Shown here: positions 3,869 to 26,154 of the stretch, one piece after another | Layout of the letters: each line of letters starts with the position of its first letter | Numbering within the stretch: position 1 is the first letter of the stretch | Assembly: GCA_021787205.1 (NCBI GenBank) | Contig: JAJYME010000005.1 | Coordinates: 1-49,661 of the forward strand | From: a bacterium | GTDB lineage: Bacteria; Patescibacteriota; Minisyncoccia; UBA6257; Colwellbacteraceae | Length of the DNA stretch: 49,661 nucleotides | Direction: 5' to 3' | Notes under the pieces: generated by a model | Databases searched by the model: none | What the model saw: only the letters and a program-made list of their open reading frames with translations | Told to the model about the DNA's origin: nothing | Program-made: the position numbers and the translations under genes

Positions 3869-4687
3869 TTATTTATTTTCAGTCTTGATAAGCGATAAGA
3901 CGCCGAACAAGAAAAGAACCGCTGAGCCGATGATGACAATGGTGGCGCCGGTCGGAAGATTAAGGATATAGGAAATAAGAAGACCGGAGACGACGATCAT
4001 TTCCGAAGAGATGACCGAGGCCCAGACGACACCCCGGAAAGACTTGGCGATAAATCTGGAGATGGAAACCGGGATAATCATCATCGAGGAAACAAGCATG
4101 ATTCCCAAAACCTTGATGCCAAGGACGACAGTCACCGCGGTGATAATGTAAAACAAGGGTTTCAAGACATCTACCCTCATGCCGCTAGTCTTAGCCAGGT
4201 CCTCGTCCAAAGACATCACTGTGAGCTCCCTCTTAAAAAGAAGCAAGAAGACCAGGAGAACTAGAGCGATACCGCTGATCAGATAAACTTCGCTCTGCCT
4301 GACAGAAAGAATGTTGCCAAATAAGAAACTCATCAACTCCGGCTTATAGCCCTTCGAGAAGCCGATAAAAAGAGCGCCTAGCGCCATACCGAAGGAGAAG
4401 ATAATCCCGATAGCCGAATCTCCCGAAATCCCCTTCTTTTCCAAGACATAAATGACGAGGGAAAAGATGATGGCGGAGACGATGGCGGTAAGCAAAGGAC
4501 TGGTGCCCAAAAGCAATCCGAGGGCGATACCCGAGAGGCTGGCGTGAGCGATTCCCTCACCGAAGAAAGACATCCTCTTAAGGGTGATAAAGACGCCTAG
4601 ATAGCTTATCAAGCCGCCCAAGATCAGGCCGATGACAAGAGCCCGGCTCATAAAGGCATATTGAAAGATGTTCAAAAAATTATCCAT
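3869..4687 (-). CDS. znuB: Metal (zinc/manganese) ABC transporter permease, ZnuB family
   Basis: ABC-3 family polytopic protein (GEGIAHASLSGIALGLLLG, GTSPLLTAIVSAIIFSL); operon with ATPase and SBP. Confidence 0.85.
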   Translation of the reverse strand: MDNFLNIFQYAFMSRALVIGLILGGLISYLGVFITLKRMSFFGEGIAHASLSGIALGLLLGTSPLLTAIVSAIIFSLVIYVLEKKGISGDSAIGIIFSFGMALGALFIGFSKGYKPELMSFLFGNILSVRQSEVYLISGIALVLLVFLLLFKRELTVMSLDEDLAKTSGMRVDVLKPLFYIITAVTVVLGIKVLGIMLVSSMMIIPVSISRFIAKSFRGVVWASVISSEMIVVSGLLISYILNLPTGATIVIIGSAVLFLFGVLSLIKTENK

Positions 4688-9992: not shown

Positions 9993-10235
9993 TTATTCCT
10001 TGCGCCTTCCGGCTTCAGCCTCTTCATCGGCCTTTCGATCCAAGTGATATGGCTCTTCAGGCACTACTGCGGAAGCGACAATATAAGCAAGCGCAGGTAA
10101 AAAGAACATTCCTATAAAAAGGAAAAAGATGTAAAAAACCCTGAGGATGGTGGGGTCGATATCAAGATATTCCCCGATACCTCCGATCAGACCGGTGATG
10201 ACTTTGTTATTTCGGCTTCGATAAAGCTTTTTCAT
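9993..10235 (-). CDS. PspC domain protein
   Basis: MKKLYRSRNNKVITGLIGGIGEYLDIDPTILRVFYIFFLFIG...AYIVASAVVPEEP. Confidence 0.88.
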   Translation of the reverse strand: MKKLYRSRNNKVITGLIGGIGEYLDIDPTILRVFYIFFLFIGMFFLPALAYIVASAVVPEEPYHLDRKADEEAEAGRRKE

Positions 10236-18896: not shown

Positions 18897-20672
18897 TTAG
18901 GCAGAAAAGCCTTCGGATTGGATCTCATAGAGGCTCTTATACAAGCCGCCAAACTCCATCAATTCTTTATGAGTCCCCTGCTCGACGATACCGCCATCCT
19001 TGATAGCAATGATGCGATCCATCTTTTTGATGGTCGAAAGCCTATGGGCGATGATGATAACCGTCTTCCTTTTCATCAGATTCTCCAAGGCTTCCTGGAT
19101 AAGGACCTCGGACTCGGAATCCAGGGCGGAAGTCGCCTCATCCAAAATAAGAATCGGCGCATCTTTCAAGATAGCGCGGGCGATCGCAACCCTTTGCCTT
19201 TCGCCACCAGAGAGCTTGACTCCCCTTTCACCCACCTTTGTATCATAGCCTTCGGTAAAGTTAGCGATGAACTCATGGCAACGAGCCAACTTGGACGCTT
19301 CGATGACCTGCTCGTCAGTCGCCTCCGGCATCCCGTAGCGGATATTGTCCATCAAGCTTCTATGAAAGAGCGATGGATCTTGAGGCACATAAGCGACATT
19401 CTTCCATAAGCTCTCCTGGGTCACCTGGCTGATGTCCTGATTATCAATATCAATCTCGCCGCTTGTGACATCAAACGATCTTAAGAGAAGTTTGACGATG
19501 GTCGACTTCCCGGCGCCAGAGGGGCCGATAAAAGCGACTCTTTCTTTGGGTCTTATTTCAAAGGATAGATTGCTGATGACATCGGCGCCATTCTTGTATT
19601 TGAAACCGACATTCTTAAAAGTGATAGTTCCGTGATCGACGACAAGGTCTTTGGCTTCCTCGGCATCTTTGATTTCATGAGGAGTCAAAAGAATCTCAGT
19701 CATCTCGTTGGCTTCGGCAATGTTCTCATAATAACTCCTGATGACGCGATAAAAGCTCCAAATCCGATGAAAGATCAAGCTGATATAAGATTGAAGCAAG
19801 ACGAAACTGCCGATTGAGAAATTGCCAGCAGCATAAAGCCTGACCGCATAGACCAAAAGCCCGACCTCGAGAACGGTAAACAAGAGAGCTTGGATGCCGT
19901 TAAAAGCGGTACCCAATCCCCAGGAGGTTTTCCTCAATCTTCTGACAGCCTCATTCATTTTGGCGAAGAGACCTGTCTCCCTTTTATAACCGTTGAAGAG
20001 TTTTATGGTCGCATAGTTCGATACCGTATCAGCCAAGACGCCGCTTGTCTCTGACTCCGTCTCAGATAACTCGAGATCGTACTTCAGCTTGAATCTCGAA
20101 AAGGCGATACTGATGAACATATAAAAAACGATCCAGACAAGGATGACGACCGAGATGACGTAGCTCACATCCCAAAGGACGATAACGGCGGAGATGATAG
20201 TGACGATCATCGGGACAACCTCATAAATCAGATTATCCATAATCGCCTCAAACGCCCTCGAGAAACTCCTGACCCTCTTCACTAAAGCGCCGGAAAAATT
20301 GTCAGCAAAGAAACCGGAAGAGTGCTTGTGCAAATAAGCGAAGCACTTGTCCATCAGCTTCGACATTGAAAAAGATTCGAAATGGACGATGGAGAAATCA
20401 GACACTCTCCAGAGCAGCCAGCTTATCCCCTTCAGGACGGCGATGACGACAATGATTCCTAAAGCCGCAGAAACCGAAAAACCGCCCGAGAGCGAATCCA
20501 GGAACTTTTTCATATAAATAGGGGTAATGATATCCAGAATCGAGATAGTCACGATCGAGGCGATCATTAAGAAAAACAAACCCTTAAGCTCCATTGCCTG
20601 TTTCCAAAAAATCGCCAGGGTCTGCTTTGAGTAAGCCTTCCTATTCTTTTTTTCTGCTTTTTTATTCGACAT
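18897..20672 (-). CDS. MsbA-like ABC exporter (fused TMD-NBD)
   Basis: Walker A GPSGAGKST, LSGGERQRVAIARAI, ILILDEATSALDSESE; start set at MSNKKAEKKNRK. Confidence 0.9.
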   Translation of the reverse strand: MSNKKAEKKNRKAYSKQTLAIFWKQAMELKGLFFLMIASIVTISILDIITPIYMKKFLDSLSGGFSVSAALGIIVVIAVLKGISWLLWRVSDFSIVHFESFSMSKLMDKCFAYLHKHSSGFFADNFSGALVKRVRSFSRAFEAIMDNLIYEVVPMIVTIISAVIVLWDVSYVISVVILVWIVFYMFISIAFSRFKLKYDLELSETESETSGVLADTVSNYATIKLFNGYKRETGLFAKMNEAVRRLRKTSWGLGTAFNGIQALLFTVLEVGLLVYAVRLYAAGNFSIGSFVLLQSYISLIFHRIWSFYRVIRSYYENIAEANEMTEILLTPHEIKDAEEAKDLVVDHGTITFKNVGFKYKNGADVISNLSFEIRPKERVAFIGPSGAGKSTIVKLLLRSFDVTSGEIDIDNQDISQVTQESLWKNVAYVPQDPSLFHRSLMDNIRYGMPEATDEQVIEASKLARCHEFIANFTEGYDTKVGERGVKLSGGERQRVAIARAILKDAPILILDEATSALDSESEVLIQEALENLMKRKTVIIIAHRLSTIKKMDRIIAIKDGGIVEQGTHKELMEFGGLYKSLYEIQSEGFSA

Positions 20673-20745
20673 ATCAAAGAATATGAGTTTATCACACGGG
20701 AGAATAAAAACAACCCCGCAGAAGCGGGATTGCGTATAAAAACAG

Positions 20746-21537
20746 TTATTTAATGCTAAAGACAGCACGGACCGTAAGCATTATTTCCTTATCCTCAGTC
20801 GAGGTATCGTAAGTGCCGTAATCTGAAATATCGACGGAATTAGGAGCCAAAACCTGAGTGACGCCGATTGATGAGCTTCTCAGCGATCCGACTTTGCTAT
20901 TGTCGGAGCCGGCAATCATCTCAGCTCTCTTCCTGGCATCCTTGACCGCCTCTCCGATAAGTTCGATTCTCTTTTCAGAAAGAGGGGTGTAATAATATTC
21001 CGGCGAACCGGGGTTAACAAGGATTCCGGATTCGAATAAGGGCTTGGTGTTATTGGCAACCGCCTTTATCTTGGCTATATCGTTCGATTTGACCTCGACG
21101 CTCTGATTAAAGGTATATCTGTCGGGCCCCTTCGAGCCGGATTTCTCATATTCATAGATCTTACCGGAATTCATAGTTGAGACCGAATATTCGCTCTCAG
21201 AGATTCCGTTATCCTTAAGGAAATCCTTAATGGTATTGAGGTCGGACTCCATCTCCCGAACTCCGGACTTCATATCGTCCTCGGTGACAGTCCTTGAGAA
21301 ATTGATCCTCCATTTAGCCAGATCAGACTTGACCTCGACTTTGGCTGAACCAGTAGTGGTCAGAGTGTTATCAAGAGCTTTTATCTTATAGGCGGTAACG
21401 GAAACGATGGTGAAAGCGATGACAATAAAGACCCCCAGAGCTCCTGCGGCGGCCGCATAAGGATTCTCGCGAATCCCCTTGTTTTCATCAATTATTTTTT
21501 TAACATTTGCCATCATCATGGTATTAATTATACTCAC
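20746..21537 (-). CDS. SIMPL (DUF541) domain protein
   Basis: TTTGSAKVEVKSDLAKWRINFSRTV...ARKRAEMIAG; start may be an internal ATG near 21519. Confidence 0.85.
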   Translation of the reverse strand: MSIINTMMMANVKKIIDENKGIRENPYAAAAGALGVFIVIAFTIVSVTAYKIKALDNTLTTTGSAKVEVKSDLAKWRINFSRTVTEDDMKSGVREMESDLNTIKDFLKDNGISESEYSVSTMNSGKIYEYEKSGSKGPDRYTFNQSVEVKSNDIAKIKAVANNTKPLFESGILVNPGSPEYYYTPLSEKRIELIGEAVKDARKRAEMIAGSDNSKVGSLRSSSIGVTQVLAPNSVDISDYGTYDTSTEDKEIMLTVRAVFSIK

Positions 21538-21555: not shown

Positions 21556-21726
21556 TTATTTTGTGTCAAAATGCTCTTTGGTAATGACACCATCAGCACC
21601 GTTAACCATCATGAGCTTATGACACTTGCGACATTTCACCTCTACCTTTCCGGTTATTAACTCACCCTTGAAGAGAAGCTTTCCGCATTCGCAGCGAAAC
21701 TCTTGAAGATTAGATTGGGTTTCCAT
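21556..21726 (-). CDS. 56-aa Com-like zinc-ribbon protein
   Basis: METQSNLQEFRCECGKLLFKGELITGKVEVKCRKCHKLMMVNGADGVITKEHFDTK; CxC...CxxC knuckles as in Mu Com-like proteins; below the ORF-track cutoff. Confidence 0.8.
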   Translation of the reverse strand: METQSNLQEFRCECGKLLFKGELITGKVEVKCRKCHKLMMVNGADGVITKEHFDTK

Positions 21727-21762: not shown

Positions 21763-21828
21763 ATTATAGAAAATAAGATGTTAAGCCACGGTAAAAAAAA
21801 TGTTAAGGAATTGTTAAGGAATTGTTAA
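21763..21828 (-). promoter_or_regulatory. Regulator-box promoter C: five 11-bp-spaced repeats then N10-TATAAT
   Basis: Repeats at 21823, 21812, 21801, 21790 (TTTACC), 21779; TATAAT 21768..21763. Confidence 0.78.
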
Positions 21829-21831
21829 AAA

Positions 21832-21878: not shown

Positions 21879-23771
21879 TTATCCACAGGTTTTTGTGAAT
21901 TGGAGATAAGTTTTTCGATCAGCTAAAGTTCTTTCAGTTGCTAACCTTACCGGGGCAATTATTCTCGAAAGAATGACGCTCACATCCCCAAGGTGAGAGA
22001 GGTTTCCAGCCGCGGCCACCGCAGACGCCGAGTACTCCAGGGCCAACTTGCAGACAAGAGGAAGAACATCATTCCAAAAAATCTTATTGATTTCTACTTC
22101 ATCCTTAAGATCGATACCTCTCTTGGCGATAGCGTCCGTCAGAAGAGCGACGACGGGAGAAATCCTCCCCTTGGCTAAATCCTCGAAACAGTCTCTCAAG
22201 TCATCATTCAACTGCCTCGCAATGATATAATTTTTAAAGAAGCCGAGCACCGACGCGATCTCGACCGAGCCGACGGCATATCCAAGTTTCGAGAGGAGAA
22301 TAGTCGGCCCTAGGCTGTGACCCATCGACTTATCAGCGATGATGTCGAGCCGGCTGTATATTTTTCCATACCTCTCCTCCAAGGGACTGTTTTCAATACG
22401 GGCAGCTTCGATCTCCCAAAGGTTTCCGGCGTCCATTTTGTTAAGAATCGAAAGCGACAACCCGAAAAAATCGTCAGAAGATGAAGACTTCAATTCCGAG
22501 ACGACCTTTCTCAAACAATAATTAGCCAGGGGAAGATCGGCCGGATTCCCCTCACCATCCAAGAAACCGTCATAAATCGAATAAGCAATCCAACCACAAA
22601 GACTGACTACTCCTAAAGAAACAAGAAATTCGTCAGAGATCCCCTTCCGACTGTCAGAAGGCAAGCCGGAGGCGAGGAGAGAAGCGACCAGAATGATCTC
22701 CTGTTTTTCCTTCCCGGATGACACCGCTTCAAACCATCTGCTAAACGATTTCCTTAACCCGCCGCAATCGTCAAGATCAGCCTCGATATCCGATTTTACC
22801 TTCGAGAGAATACCGACTAGATAAGAATCATCCCGGGAAACCTCAGCCCCCGAACTTCCAGCGCGATTAATGACCTCGAGCGCCAAGGCTAGCTCAAGGT
22901 CGTAGGAACCGGAATAACTTTTGACACCATTCCTATTGGTCTCGACTACGAAAGGATAAATATTTCCGGACTCGGAATCTAACCAGTTGGCGATCTTTTC
23001 CACGTAGAGCGAGAGGTTGGAGGAATCGACACCACAATTCATCAACCCAAGGACGGAGAATGAGAGATCAAGCGGATTAGCCGCTTTGTCGATATTTTTT
23101 TCAAACCAGATTTTCAAATCCCCGATCTTCTCACCCCGATAGGCCCGGGAAACGAAATAAGCCACAGAAAATTCGGTTTCGTAGTAACGGGAAGAGAAGC
23201 TTCCCATCTCAATTGCCGACTCCATAAAACCGACAAGATTTGGCAGCTCAGCTCCAACTTTTGAAAGGGCGTAGGCGATATTGGCGTTAACCGCCAAGTC
23301 TACATCTTTCCACTTCTCAGCATCCGGGAGGGTGATCCAAGTATAATAAGGACCACCCTCAAAAGCCTCCTCAGAACTAAGGATCATGATGAGATAAGCC
23401 AGAGCCTCACCATCATTTTCGCCATTCAACAAATCCAACGAAGCAAAAGCCATCGAAGTCGAATCCAGGTCGTCCGGATAAGGGACGCTTGCCGCCGCCT
23501 CGGAGTTTCGACGCCAGTAATTGAAACATAAGCGGTCATTTCCCTGGGAGACCAAAAAAGATGTAAGCCGTTCGATAACCGGTTTGATTTCGGGATAAGA
23601 CTTAAGAGATTTGAAGGAATCAAGAATAAAAAAATTGGGAAAGACGGCGGAACTCGGTTTCTTATCGGCAAAATCCGGGTCGAAGGAGGTGAAAACTCGG
23701 AAGCCCTCCCTGATGTCGATCTTGGAAAGACGTGACAATTTAGTTTTTATTATCCGAGAATAATCAATCAT
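21879..23771 (-). CDS. Two-domain terpene-cyclase/polyprenyl-synthase-like protein
   Basis: N-terminal alpha/alpha-barrel-like region with VPYPDDLDSTSMAFASL and EGGPYYTWI...DVDLAVNANIAYALSKVG; C-terminal class I-like Asp motifs AYSIYDGFLDGEG and QLNDDLRDCFEDLAKGRISP. ATG at 23771 overlaps the kinase stop. Confidence 0.7.
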   Translation of the reverse strand: MIDYSRIIKTKLSRLSKIDIREGFRVFTSFDPDFADKKPSSAVFPNFFILDSFKSLKSYPEIKPVIERLTSFLVSQGNDRLCFNYWRRNSEAAASVPYPDDLDSTSMAFASLDLLNGENDGEALAYLIMILSSEEAFEGGPYYTWITLPDAEKWKDVDLAVNANIAYALSKVGAELPNLVGFMESAIEMGSFSSRYYETEFSVAYFVSRAYRGEKIGDLKIWFEKNIDKAANPLDLSFSVLGLMNCGVDSSNLSLYVEKIANWLDSESGNIYPFVVETNRNGVKSYSGSYDLELALALEVINRAGSSGAEVSRDDSYLVGILSKVKSDIEADLDDCGGLRKSFSRWFEAVSSGKEKQEIILVASLLASGLPSDSRKGISDEFLVSLGVVSLCGWIAYSIYDGFLDGEGNPADLPLANYCLRKVVSELKSSSSDDFFGLSLSILNKMDAGNLWEIEAARIENSPLEERYGKIYSRLDIIADKSMGHSLGPTILLSKLGYAVGSVEIASVLGFFKNYIIARQLNDDLRDCFEDLAKGRISPVVALLTDAIAKRGIDLKDEVEINKIFWNDVLPLVCKLALEYSASAVAAAGNLSHLGDVSVILSRIIAPVRLATERTLADRKTYLQFTKTCG

Positions 23772-25170
23772 CTTTTTTTTCAAATAAAGGAATCTGGACA
23801 AGAAAGACCGTCCCTATCTCTTGATCGCTGTCGAAAGCCACGATCCCATTGAAGTCCTCGTAGACCGAACTGCGGACGATGCCTAAGCCGAGACCGACCC
23901 CCTCCTTGCCGGTGGAAAAGAAGTTTTTGAAAATCCTTCTTTTGTTTTCCTCTTTGATGCCGCAACCAAAATCAAAGATTTCAAGGATATAATAACCCCC
24001 CTTCGAAAAGCTCTTGATAACAATTCTCCTATTGTCCTCCCTCTCAACCGTTTCATAAGCGTTGATACCGTTCGAGACAAGATTAGAGACGATATGAGAG
24101 AACTTAACGACTGACCCGCAGATCCTTTTCTCATCCCCGTCCGAGAGAAATTCAAAAACGATATTCCCCTTCTTAGCCTTGTAAGTCATAAAACCGAGAA
24201 CATCCCGTATCTCGTCGTCCGGGTTGAAGACAACCTTTTCCGCCCCCTTCAGTCTTCTCTTGTTTGAGTCCAGAAACTTTTCAAAATCACTCTTGGCTTC
24301 GTGAAACTCCTCCAAATACTCCTTGGCTCTGGTCACCTCTTCGCTTCCGCTCATCTTCTCGTCCATCGTCAACATCAAGACGCCGAGATGATTAGCGAGA
24401 TCGTGGAAGATTCCCGAAGAAAGCTTTCCGAACTCAATAAATCGGGAAGCTTGATTCATCTGATCCCGGTGTTGTTTCTCCAGCTCCTCAGTCCTTTCTT
24501 TAACCTTTATTTCCAAACTGTCCTTTTCGACTCTCAGATCGGACTCGGATTTTTTCAGGCGGCCGAAAGCCTTTTTTATCTCATGGTTGTAAAGATAAGA
24601 GATGATAAAAACAAAGATAATCGAAAAGGAGTAGACAAAGACGTCGACTAACTCGGTCGGCAACATCTTCCAAGATGTCGACGGCACGACGAGCCCTATC
24701 TCCTCGAGATAGAATACGCCGCTGATTGAAAAAAGAGATGAGACCAGCATAAAGACAGTAAACAGGTTATCGGTGAGAATAGAAGCGATGAGGATGGCAA
24801 TGATGTGAAGCAATAAAGCTTGGGGTACCGCGACTCCCCACGAAAGCATCGAGACAACGGCAAAGAACAAATAGAACAAGGACAGGAACTTTGAGGCGAC
24901 AAGTTGGTTTCCAGACATCGCTAAGACCCCCAGGAGGATTAGAAACAGCAAGACATTGACCGCTGTCTGAAGATCAGTGACTTCATTCGACCTGAAAGCA
25001 ACCAGACACATGGCGATCACGGCGACGAGAACCAGCCCGGTAGATAGTCCGAGCAAGATCTTAAGGATCGAGTATTTATGAATATCGTAAGACTCCTCCC
25101 TGTCGAAGTCGAGGATTCGCTTCAAAAGAGAAACAATCCTGTCTTTGAAAAAATCAGCTGTCAATCTCAT
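23764..25170 (-). CDS. Multi-TM sensor histidine kinase
   Basis: ~6 N-terminal TM segments, coiled coil, H-box FGKLSSGIFHDLANHLGVL, HATPase N-box NLVSNGINAYE, DFGCGI, GVGLGLGIV. Start reassigned to MRLTADFFKDR (25170). Confidence 0.9.
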   Translation of the reverse strand: MRLTADFFKDRIVSLLKRILDFDREESYDIHKYSILKILLGLSTGLVLVAVIAMCLVAFRSNEVTDLQTAVNVLLFLILLGVLAMSGNQLVASKFLSLFYLFFAVVSMLSWGVAVPQALLLHIIAILIASILTDNLFTVFMLVSSLFSISGVFYLEEIGLVVPSTSWKMLPTELVDVFVYSFSIIFVFIISYLYNHEIKKAFGRLKKSESDLRVEKDSLEIKVKERTEELEKQHRDQMNQASRFIEFGKLSSGIFHDLANHLGVLMLTMDEKMSGSEEVTRAKEYLEEFHEAKSDFEKFLDSNKRRLKGAEKVVFNPDDEIRDVLGFMTYKAKKGNIVFEFLSDGDEKRICGSVVKFSHIVSNLVSNGINAYETVEREDNRRIVIKSFSKGGYYILEIFDFGCGIKEENKRRIFKNFFSTGKEGVGLGLGIVRSSVYEDFNGIVAFDSDQEIGTVFLVQIPLFEKKDD

Positions 25171-25200
25171 GGATATTATTACGTAATTTAGAAGAAAAAG

Positions 25201-25220
25201 ACCCGCTCCAAGGAGCGGGT
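25201..25220 (-). terminator. Perfect hairpin between peptide gene and kinase gene (terminator or attenuator)
   Basis: ACCCGCTCC-AA-GGAGCGGGT followed by CTTTTTCTTC on the minus strand. Confidence 0.65.
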
Positions 25221-25228
25221 GAAAAAAC

Positions 25229-25342
25229 TTACAGCCAAGGATCACCCAAGACTCCGACAGTCGTCAGGACAAAAGCGCTTGAAAGCAGAGAATTGCGGAG
25301 ATTCTTGTCGGTCAGCATCTTCTGGAGAAGTTCTTTTTTCAT
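25229..25342 (-). CDS. 37-aa candidate signalling peptide precursor (ComX-like)
   Basis: MKKELLQKMLTDKNLRNSLLSSAFVLTTVGVLGDPWL; 41 nt downstream of a -10 box with four upstream TTAACA repeats; below the ORF-track cutoff. Confidence 0.65.
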   Translation of the reverse strand: MKKELLQKMLTDKNLRNSLLSSAFVLTTVGVLGDPWL

Positions 25343-25382
25343 TATTTTATTTTTTGATTCCTTCGACCTTTGTTGTAATTCT

Positions 25383-25448
25383 ATTGTATCACGCCGACCC
25401 CCTTAAAAAAGTTAAGGAATTGTTAAGGAATTGTTAAGGAATTGTTAA
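25383..25448 (-). promoter_or_regulatory. Regulator-box promoter D: TTAACA x3 + TTAACT, exact 11-bp period, N21, TACAAT
   Basis: Repeats at 25443, 25432, 25421, 25410; TACAAT 25388..25383. Confidence 0.72.
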
Positions 25449-25473
25449 GACCAAGGATGGGAATAAAAATGAA

Positions 25474-26154
25474 TTAAGCCAACTCCTCCCAGTCGCCATC
25501 AAAACGATACCCCGTCCCCGGAATAGCTTTGATAGCGCCTTCGCAGAACCTTATTTTTTTCCTGAGCAGGGAGATGTAGGTTTCAACCACCCTTGAAAAA
25601 GGATCCATATCGCCATCCCAGAGATGATCCATTATGTCGGCCCGGGACAGGACTTCGCCCTCCTTTTGGGCAAATAGCTTAAGAAGCATATATTCCTTTC
25701 TTGAAAGGTTGACCTCCTTGCCAGCCTCCAGGACCCGGCGGCGGACAAGATCGATTTCCAAAACGCCATATTTAAGCACCGTACTCAGATCATGATTAGA
25801 GCGGCGAAGGACCGCCTTGACTCTCGCCACGACCTCACTCATCGAAAATGGCTTCATGATATAGTCATCGGCGCCCATATCAAGGAAGAAAGTCCTCTCA
25901 GCCGGATCGCCCAAGGCGGAAACGATAATGATTCTCGTCTGGGTATTCTTTTTTCTTATGTTTGAACACACGACGGACCCTTCTTTTTTAGGCAGGACCC
26001 GGTCAAGGAGAATGACGTCATAATTATTGGCTAGGGCAAGGCGCTCTCCGCACTCCCCATCGGCAGCGACATCTACAACGAAGTTCTCAGATTCAAGACC
26101 TGTCTTGAGAAGTCTGGCGATTTTCGCGTCGTCTTCTACAACTAAAACTCTCAT
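25474..26154 (-). CDS. OmpR/PhoB-family response regulator
   Basis: Receiver MRVLVVEDD...YDVILLDRVLP...KPF; winged-helix C-terminus NLSRKEYMLLKLFAQKEGEVLSRADIMDHLWDGD...VVETYISLLRKKI...IPGTGYRF. Confidence 0.95.
   Translation of the reverse strand: MRVLVVEDDAKIARLLKTGLESENFVVDVAADGECGERLALANNYDVILLDRVLPKKEGSVVCSNIRKKNTQTRIIIVSALGDPAERTFFLDMGADDYIMKPFSMSEVVARVKAVLRRSNHDLSTVLKYGVLEIDLVRRRVLEAGKEVNLSRKEYMLLKLFAQKEGEVLSRADIMDHLWDGDMDPFSRVVETYISLLRKKIRFCEGAIKAIPGTGYRFDGDWEELA

Follow-up and report, generated by a model that had tools for sequence, protein, structure and literature searches.

The window analysed here (49,661 nucleotides of a Colwellbacteraceae genome) carries, in order along its minus strand, genes for an OmpR-type response regulator (RR, 25474..26154; Response_reg plus Trans_reg_C, PF00486), a 37-amino acid peptide that we call X (25229..25342), a histidine kinase with six predicted membrane helices (HK, 23764..25170), and a 640-amino acid protein that we call Q (21879..23801). 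We propose that X, MKKELLQKMLTDKNLRNSLLSSAFVLTTVGVLGDPWL, is a precursor peptide and that Q is its maturase. The X gene has 37 codons, with its ATG at 25342-25340 and its stop codon at 25231-25229; it had been reported as an unannotated open reading frame (ORF) in a first-pass annotation made from sequence alone, and both its position and its translation held. The enzyme candidate Q was missed by that annotation.

Several short elements surround X on the same strand. Upstream are tandem 11-bp direct repeats, CTTAACAATTC, containing four TTAA half-sites with OmpR/PhoB-type spacing (25412..25450), a probable −10 element, TACAAT, which is inferred by reading the sequence (25383..25388), and a leader element, AAAGGTCGA (25363..25371), GGTCGA being common upstream of X. 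Between X and HK is a perfect hairpin followed by a T-run, which resembles an intrinsic terminator (25200..25221). The first-pass annotation had credited X with its own promoter, and a promoter region with direct repeats is indeed present.

To place X in context, we searched for Q in the order and the class and used an alignment of Q to scan 84,980 species genomes, which yielded 42 loci. These belong to Patescibacteria wherever the record names a lineage, with a few named only ‘bacterium’, and the RR-X-HK-Q linkage spans the Saccharibacteria, Paceibacteria/Parcubacteria, Microgenomates, and others. An RR-HK-Q or HK-Q(-RR) arrangement is kept in nearly all of them, and a short ORF that encodes a Trp close to its end lies between RR and HK or just 5′ of HK. 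One candidate (G359/L037) matches only the toroid half and was rejected, as there is no such system at that locus. Q is rare: a profile search across the phylum found it in 19 of the 379 genomes sampled (about 5%). A homologue search with the X peptide itself in genomes of the same family recovered one other copy, 55% identical and located beside an HK, in genome G012; there a Q homologue adjoins the HK and the OmpR-type RR is on the opposite strand.

The X family comprises 40 members: the window X, 37 from the scan (all loci with sequence upstream of HK), and two that the class search added. X is present beside HK in every one of the 40 Q loci that have upstream sequence, and computation shows three columns to be invariant across all 40 members, L10, R16, and W36, the last being the only invariant residue in the C-terminal half. 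The Trp had been described as the only one in the peptide and as penultimate. This is partly correct for the family; the Trp is kept in all 40 members, yet it lies 2-8 residues from the C-terminus in a tail that is otherwise variable. It is the single Trp in 37 of the 40 peptides, with two Trp codons in the other three, and is directly preceded by Pro in 29. In a crude form, the N-terminal motif is present in 26 of 40. Loss of the C-terminal Trp among homologues had been set beforehand as the outcome that would refute a signal peptide; it was examined, and no homologue has lost it.

The possibility that X is a chance ORF was rejected on background rates. Among 4,214 small ORFs from the same loci, 15% carry a Trp among their last ten residues, and only 8 combine this with the N-terminal motif. 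The codon-level check points the same way: dN is well below dS (0.25 and 1.67 in the closest pair), and across 66 pairs the first, second, and third codon positions differ by 0.43, 0.33, and 0.66, such that the third position diverges twice as fast as the second. In a prospective test, 14 loci were fetched (3 already known, 11 new) and an X profile was run blind against all 3,051 of their short open frames. It returned exactly one match in each of 13 of the 14 loci, at the expected place and with a Trp in each; among the new loci alone, X was recovered in 10 of 11. Homologues at the same place in 40/40 Q loci with upstream sequence, together with this blind HMM search, show that X is a genuine gene, far beyond chance.

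The exception in the prospective test, locus L128 (G907), has a 22-amino acid ORF at the expected place, MSKQETETTPAEDNSPGTPWRS (ending GTPWRS; 3884-3952, minus strand), which is leaderless, and its Q is very diverged and short (279 amino acids). The leader element AAAGGTCG is still present at L128.

The hairpin downstream of X brings in a first rival explanation, that X is a Trp-sensing leader peptide, or attenuator, governing expression of HK and Q. In its favour, the window X has one Trp codon near its stop codon, followed by the terminator-like hairpin. The hairpin reported by the first-pass annotation is real in the window, T-run included, but it is not conserved: none of the other 39 X loci has a hairpin with a T-run. 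Furthermore, 37 of 40 members offer only one Trp codon, and the N-terminal half is constrained at the level of the protein, its L and R being invariant. Together, these observations all but exclude attenuation.

A second rival casts X as a membrane microprotein that, like small HK-modulating proteins, would regulate HK directly and independently of Q. This draws on the hydrophobic stretch noted by the first-pass annotation, which does occur in the window X and its closest relatives, but these are only a subset of the family; in a hydropathy scan, the best 15-residue mean is below 1 in most members. In addition, no C-terminal feature is as conserved as the Trp, and X occurs in linkage with Q, a rare protein. 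We consider this explanation very unlikely, and identification of X as a membrane microprotein or toxin was rejected because the hydrophobic stretch is not family-wide. Instead, the comparative evidence supports the reading first suggested for the window, in which X is a signal peptide that undergoes processing and modification and the C-terminal Trp is special, because the Trp is the sole invariant residue of the C-terminal half and the X gene is locked to HK, RR, and Q; there is no experimental proof.

The elements upstream of X also recur. Perfect lag-11 repeats precede X in 7 of the 40 loci, versus 0.2 expected from shuffles; the repeats themselves are thus shown computationally, and the array at 25412..25450 is probably an RR binding site, although this is inferred from the sequence without binding data. 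A second 11-bp array (21803..21830, minus strand) precedes a small zinc-ribbon gene and is a candidate regulon promoter. With this array included, copies of the repeat lie elsewhere in the window at positions 1309, 10282, and 21803 and twice on contig 2 (the genome was only sampled), which suggests a small regulon controlled by this RR or by another regulator of the same class. GGTCGA precedes X in 15 of the 40 loci versus 0.8 expected, mostly 24-48 nucleotides 5′ of the start codon, and is not general across the window. When folded singly, these elements form hairpins in some loci, where the element at times occupies the loop of a small one, and none in others; because the folding differs between loci, we claim no structure. 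In the Saccharibacteria and some Microgenomates loci, X follows closely behind the RR stop codon, and a single operon is likely there.

Some additional features of these regions were observed. An extended form of the repeat promoter, CTTAACAATTCCTTAACAATTTTTT-ACCTTTTCTTAAC (window 1309, 10282, and 21803; L009; L010), precedes several unrelated genes, including one for a PspC-like protein at 9993-10235; L009 and L010 have duplicated flanks in common. The small zinc-ribbon protein (EFRCECGKLLFKG..VEVKCRKC) resembles phage Mu Com and is encoded near Q in at least three loci (window 21556-21726, minus strand; L033 6633-7055, minus strand; L035 9479-9691, plus strand), the window copy having its own 11-bp repeat promoter.

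HK, the candidate receptor of mature X, has six predicted membrane helices, a long coiled coil, and a kinase core with HATPase_c. Its structure model has a mean pLDDT of 84.7, and the Foldseek matches listed for it are to kinase cores only.

Neither Pfam nor NCBIfam has a family for the window Q, but its predicted structure, built from 43 homologues, is of high confidence (mean pLDDT 91.8) and shows, by computation, two enzyme folds: an N-terminal class II terpene cyclase domain and a C-terminal trans-isoprenyl-diphosphate-synthase fold. The cyclase domain (residues 9-318, with a DLDST acid motif at 111-115) superimposes on drimenol synthase with Z 30.4 and an rmsd of 2.5 over 285 residues, and also matches other class II cyclases, including MstE (Z about 23.6). 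The synthase fold (323-623, or 319-623 in the structure match) superimposes on polyprenyl diphosphate synthases with Z 23.8 and an rmsd of 3.3 over 282 residues and contains DGFLD at 411-415 and QLNDDLRD at 530-537. Foldseek matches of Q include Ord1 (9v4g), a Trp farnesyltransferase (PMC13290415). Against PDB sequences, the only confident matches of the Q profile are drimenol synthases (E 6.5e-21).

The catalytic motifs of both domains are conserved. The residues of the second Asp-rich motif (SARM), QLxDDxxDxxxDxxxG, and the Asp D415 of the first (FARM) are invariant or nearly so in the 43 Q sequences; Q530, D533, D534, D537, D541, G545, and D415 are kept in 43/43. The Gln upstream of the SARM, although invariant in Q, is not discriminating, as canonical synthases found here carry a Gln at equal spacing. 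The Q consensus DLDDT aligns with DLDTT of drimenol synthase and with DLNTT in the AsDMS D333N mutant; because the acid column of Q falls on the D333 position of AsDMS, D113 of the window Q is likely to be the catalytic acid. This Asp is present in 38 of 43 Qs, the remainder lacking the domain or having it incomplete. The window Q itself is a variant in both motifs, with DGFLD instead of DDFLD and DLDST instead of DLDDT. Four Qs without a complete cyclase domain (L035, L036, L076, and L128) keep the prenyltransferase domain and an X with a PW-type ending. This points to the prenyltransferase as the core function of Q, and cyclisation cannot be universal.

These same features bear on a third rival, in which the signal for HK is a free (cyclic) terpenoid produced by Q, with X as a small accessory protein assisting Q or HK. 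Class II cyclases of the drimenol synthase type normally use free FPP, and they are the closest match of the Q N-terminal domain in both sequence and structure. However, the invariant Trp sits in a variable X tail, which is the ComX pattern; the loci with an incomplete cyclase retain X with its PW ending; and fusions of a peptide Trp prenyltransferase with a cyclase exist (PMC13290415). We therefore regard a free terpenoid as unlikely.

Gene context favours an isoprenoid as the substrate of Q. A polyprenyl-diphosphate synthase gene is present at the Q locus in six Saccharibacteria, where it overlaps or abuts Q (L050, L053, L059, L074, and L079) or lies just upstream of RR (L057), and 11 of 23 Q-bearing genomes contain PF00348. 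In the window genome, which is 96% complete, profile-type searches recognised no FPP synthase (PF00348), UPP synthase (UppS), or IspH, which implies that the prenyl donor comes from outside or from an unrecognised enzyme and raises the question of its origin. Three genes beyond Q is an ABC transporter with membrane and ATPase domains (18897..20768, minus strand); by inference, it may export X. ABC transporters are also near Q in several other loci. Several Nomurabacteria loci (L060, L061, L066, L067, and L069) have ABC transporter genes 3′ of Q, often as tandem pairs, along with a conserved membrane protein; these are possible exporters.

Two observations concern how the cassette is distributed. 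The Q of G012 (Candidatus Colwellbacteria) is ~63% identical to that of G264, which belongs to another order, versus ~30% to that of the window genome in the same family (L011/L038 versus L033/L039); identities that are higher across orders than within a family suggest horizontal transfer of the cassette. At L126 (G912), Q comes directly after X and the fetched stretch contains neither HK nor RR; this may be a signal producer that has no local receptor.

We favour a reading in which X, made on the ribosome, is the precursor of a Trp-lipidated peptide pheromone, matured by Q and sensed by HK and RR; we place its probability at roughly 0.78, and its chemistry, export, and sensing are inferred. 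In this model, Q would recognise the conserved leader half of X (MxxLxxxxLTxxxxR), and its prenyltransferase domain would attach an isoprenoid to the invariant C-terminal Trp, after which the class II cyclase domain of full-length Qs would probably cyclise the chain. The modified C-terminal fragment would then be released and exported, and the adjacent six-helix HK would sense it and phosphorylate the adjacent OmpR-type RR. RR is predicted to bind the 11-bp repeats and turn on the X promoter, giving positive feedback, along with a small regulon. Trp prenylation, cyclisation, cleavage, export, ligand sensing, and feedback are all inferences, without expression, mass-spectrometry, or binding data. 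Points against the pheromone reading are the absence of a nearby HK or RR at L126, the lack of recognisable donor synthesis in the window genome, the motif variants of the window Q, and the absence of detectable homology between Q and ComQ or between X and ComX.

A bolder version, which we raise only as a possibility, is that the pheromone carries a polycyclic isoprenoid on its Trp and that the donor is not made by the cell itself. If so, the signal output would report not only cell density but also whether isoprenoids from a host or neighbour are accessible, making it a host-contact-gated quorum signal in episymbionts. Even without this extension, the pheromone reading, if true, puts Trp-linked and possibly polycyclic isoprenoid chemistry to signalling use. 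With its signal gene, maturase, receptor, and regulator all defined, and with Q present in roughly 5% of the genomes sampled, the cassette makes communication directly testable in a large phylum whose members are mostly uncultured.

The known system that the cassette most resembles in gene content is ComQXPA of Bacillus and other Firmicutes, with its short Trp-bearing precursor, isoprenyl-synthase-fold enzyme, polytopic HK, and RR. Two shared features are met here: a Trp near the C-terminus within a variable tail (40/40 X), and a polytopic HK and RR adjoining the precursor gene. However, direct profile and hhalign comparisons reject membership of Q and X in the ComQ and ComX families. Ten X members had no Pfam match to ComX (PF05952) at E≤10, and in the ComQ homologue test (PF00348 / IPR033965) 11 Qs had no PF00348 match at E≤1. 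By hhalign, the probability was 3.9 for X against ComX and 0.3 for the Q C-terminal domain against two ComQs, with 98.9 for a synthase-ComQ control, although the fold is common to both. The ComQ and ComX comparison sequences were from two Bacillaceae plasmids; a third, unreferenced ComX sequence was included as well and also served as a search query. The other components differ as well. In ComQXPA the RR has a PF00196-type DNA-binding domain and ComP has a HisKA_3-type core (PMC4008528), whereas here the RR is OmpR-type (Trans_reg_C) and the HK core matches HisKA-type kinases; full-length Q also has a class II terpene cyclase domain that ComQ does not. A 2014 census found ComQXPA in Firmicutes only and none outside (PMC4008528). 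We infer that the cassette functions like ComQXPA yet is not a member of it; the resemblance would be a case of convergence from unrelated parts.

The enzymes with the most similar parts differ in other ways. Drimenol synthase (9mhs, 9m7d) resembles the N-terminal half of Q, with the acid motif aligned, but is preceded by a HAD-type domain and yields a terpene alcohol in free form, where Q is instead fused to a prenyltransferase fold. PalQ, a Paenibacillus Trp prenyltransferase (PMC10853753), and Ord1 share with Q the isoprenoid-synthase fold and have Trp as acceptor, but neither has a fused cyclase domain; PalQ belongs to a RiPP cluster, and Ord1 acts on free tryptophan. The characterised trans-IDS-like peptide prenyltransferases all target Trp, and one of them, ChrPC, adds a cyclase domain (PMC13290415). 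ChrPC and NctPC are bifunctional RiPP maturases, fusions of a prenyltransferase with a class II terpene cyclase that place a cyclised isoprenoid on a peptide Trp (Hubrich et al. 2024, summarised in PMC13290415). Although no sequence relationship to ChrPC has been established, these two are, by analogy, the nearest chemical precedents for Q: a prenyltransferase (trans-IDS-like fold in ChrPC) is fused to a cyclase (MstE-like in NctPC) and acts on the Trp of a ribosomal peptide, and Q meets the ChrPC-type criteria of an isoprenoid-synthase fold with FARM and SARM and a class II cyclase domain with a DxDD-type acid motif. In Q, the cyclase is N-terminal and the prenyltransferase C-terminal, and the gene lies within a two-component signalling operon, whereas the descriptions of ChrPC and NctPC are of enzymes that modify peptides and not of signalling systems. 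In the open-licence full-text literature, outside which most subscription papers fall, we found no peptide pheromone system described for Patescibacteria. Signalling by Trp-prenylated peptides is known, as are RiPP maturases that join a prenyltransferase to a cyclase; it is their combination, and its occurrence in Patescibacteria, that appears to be new.
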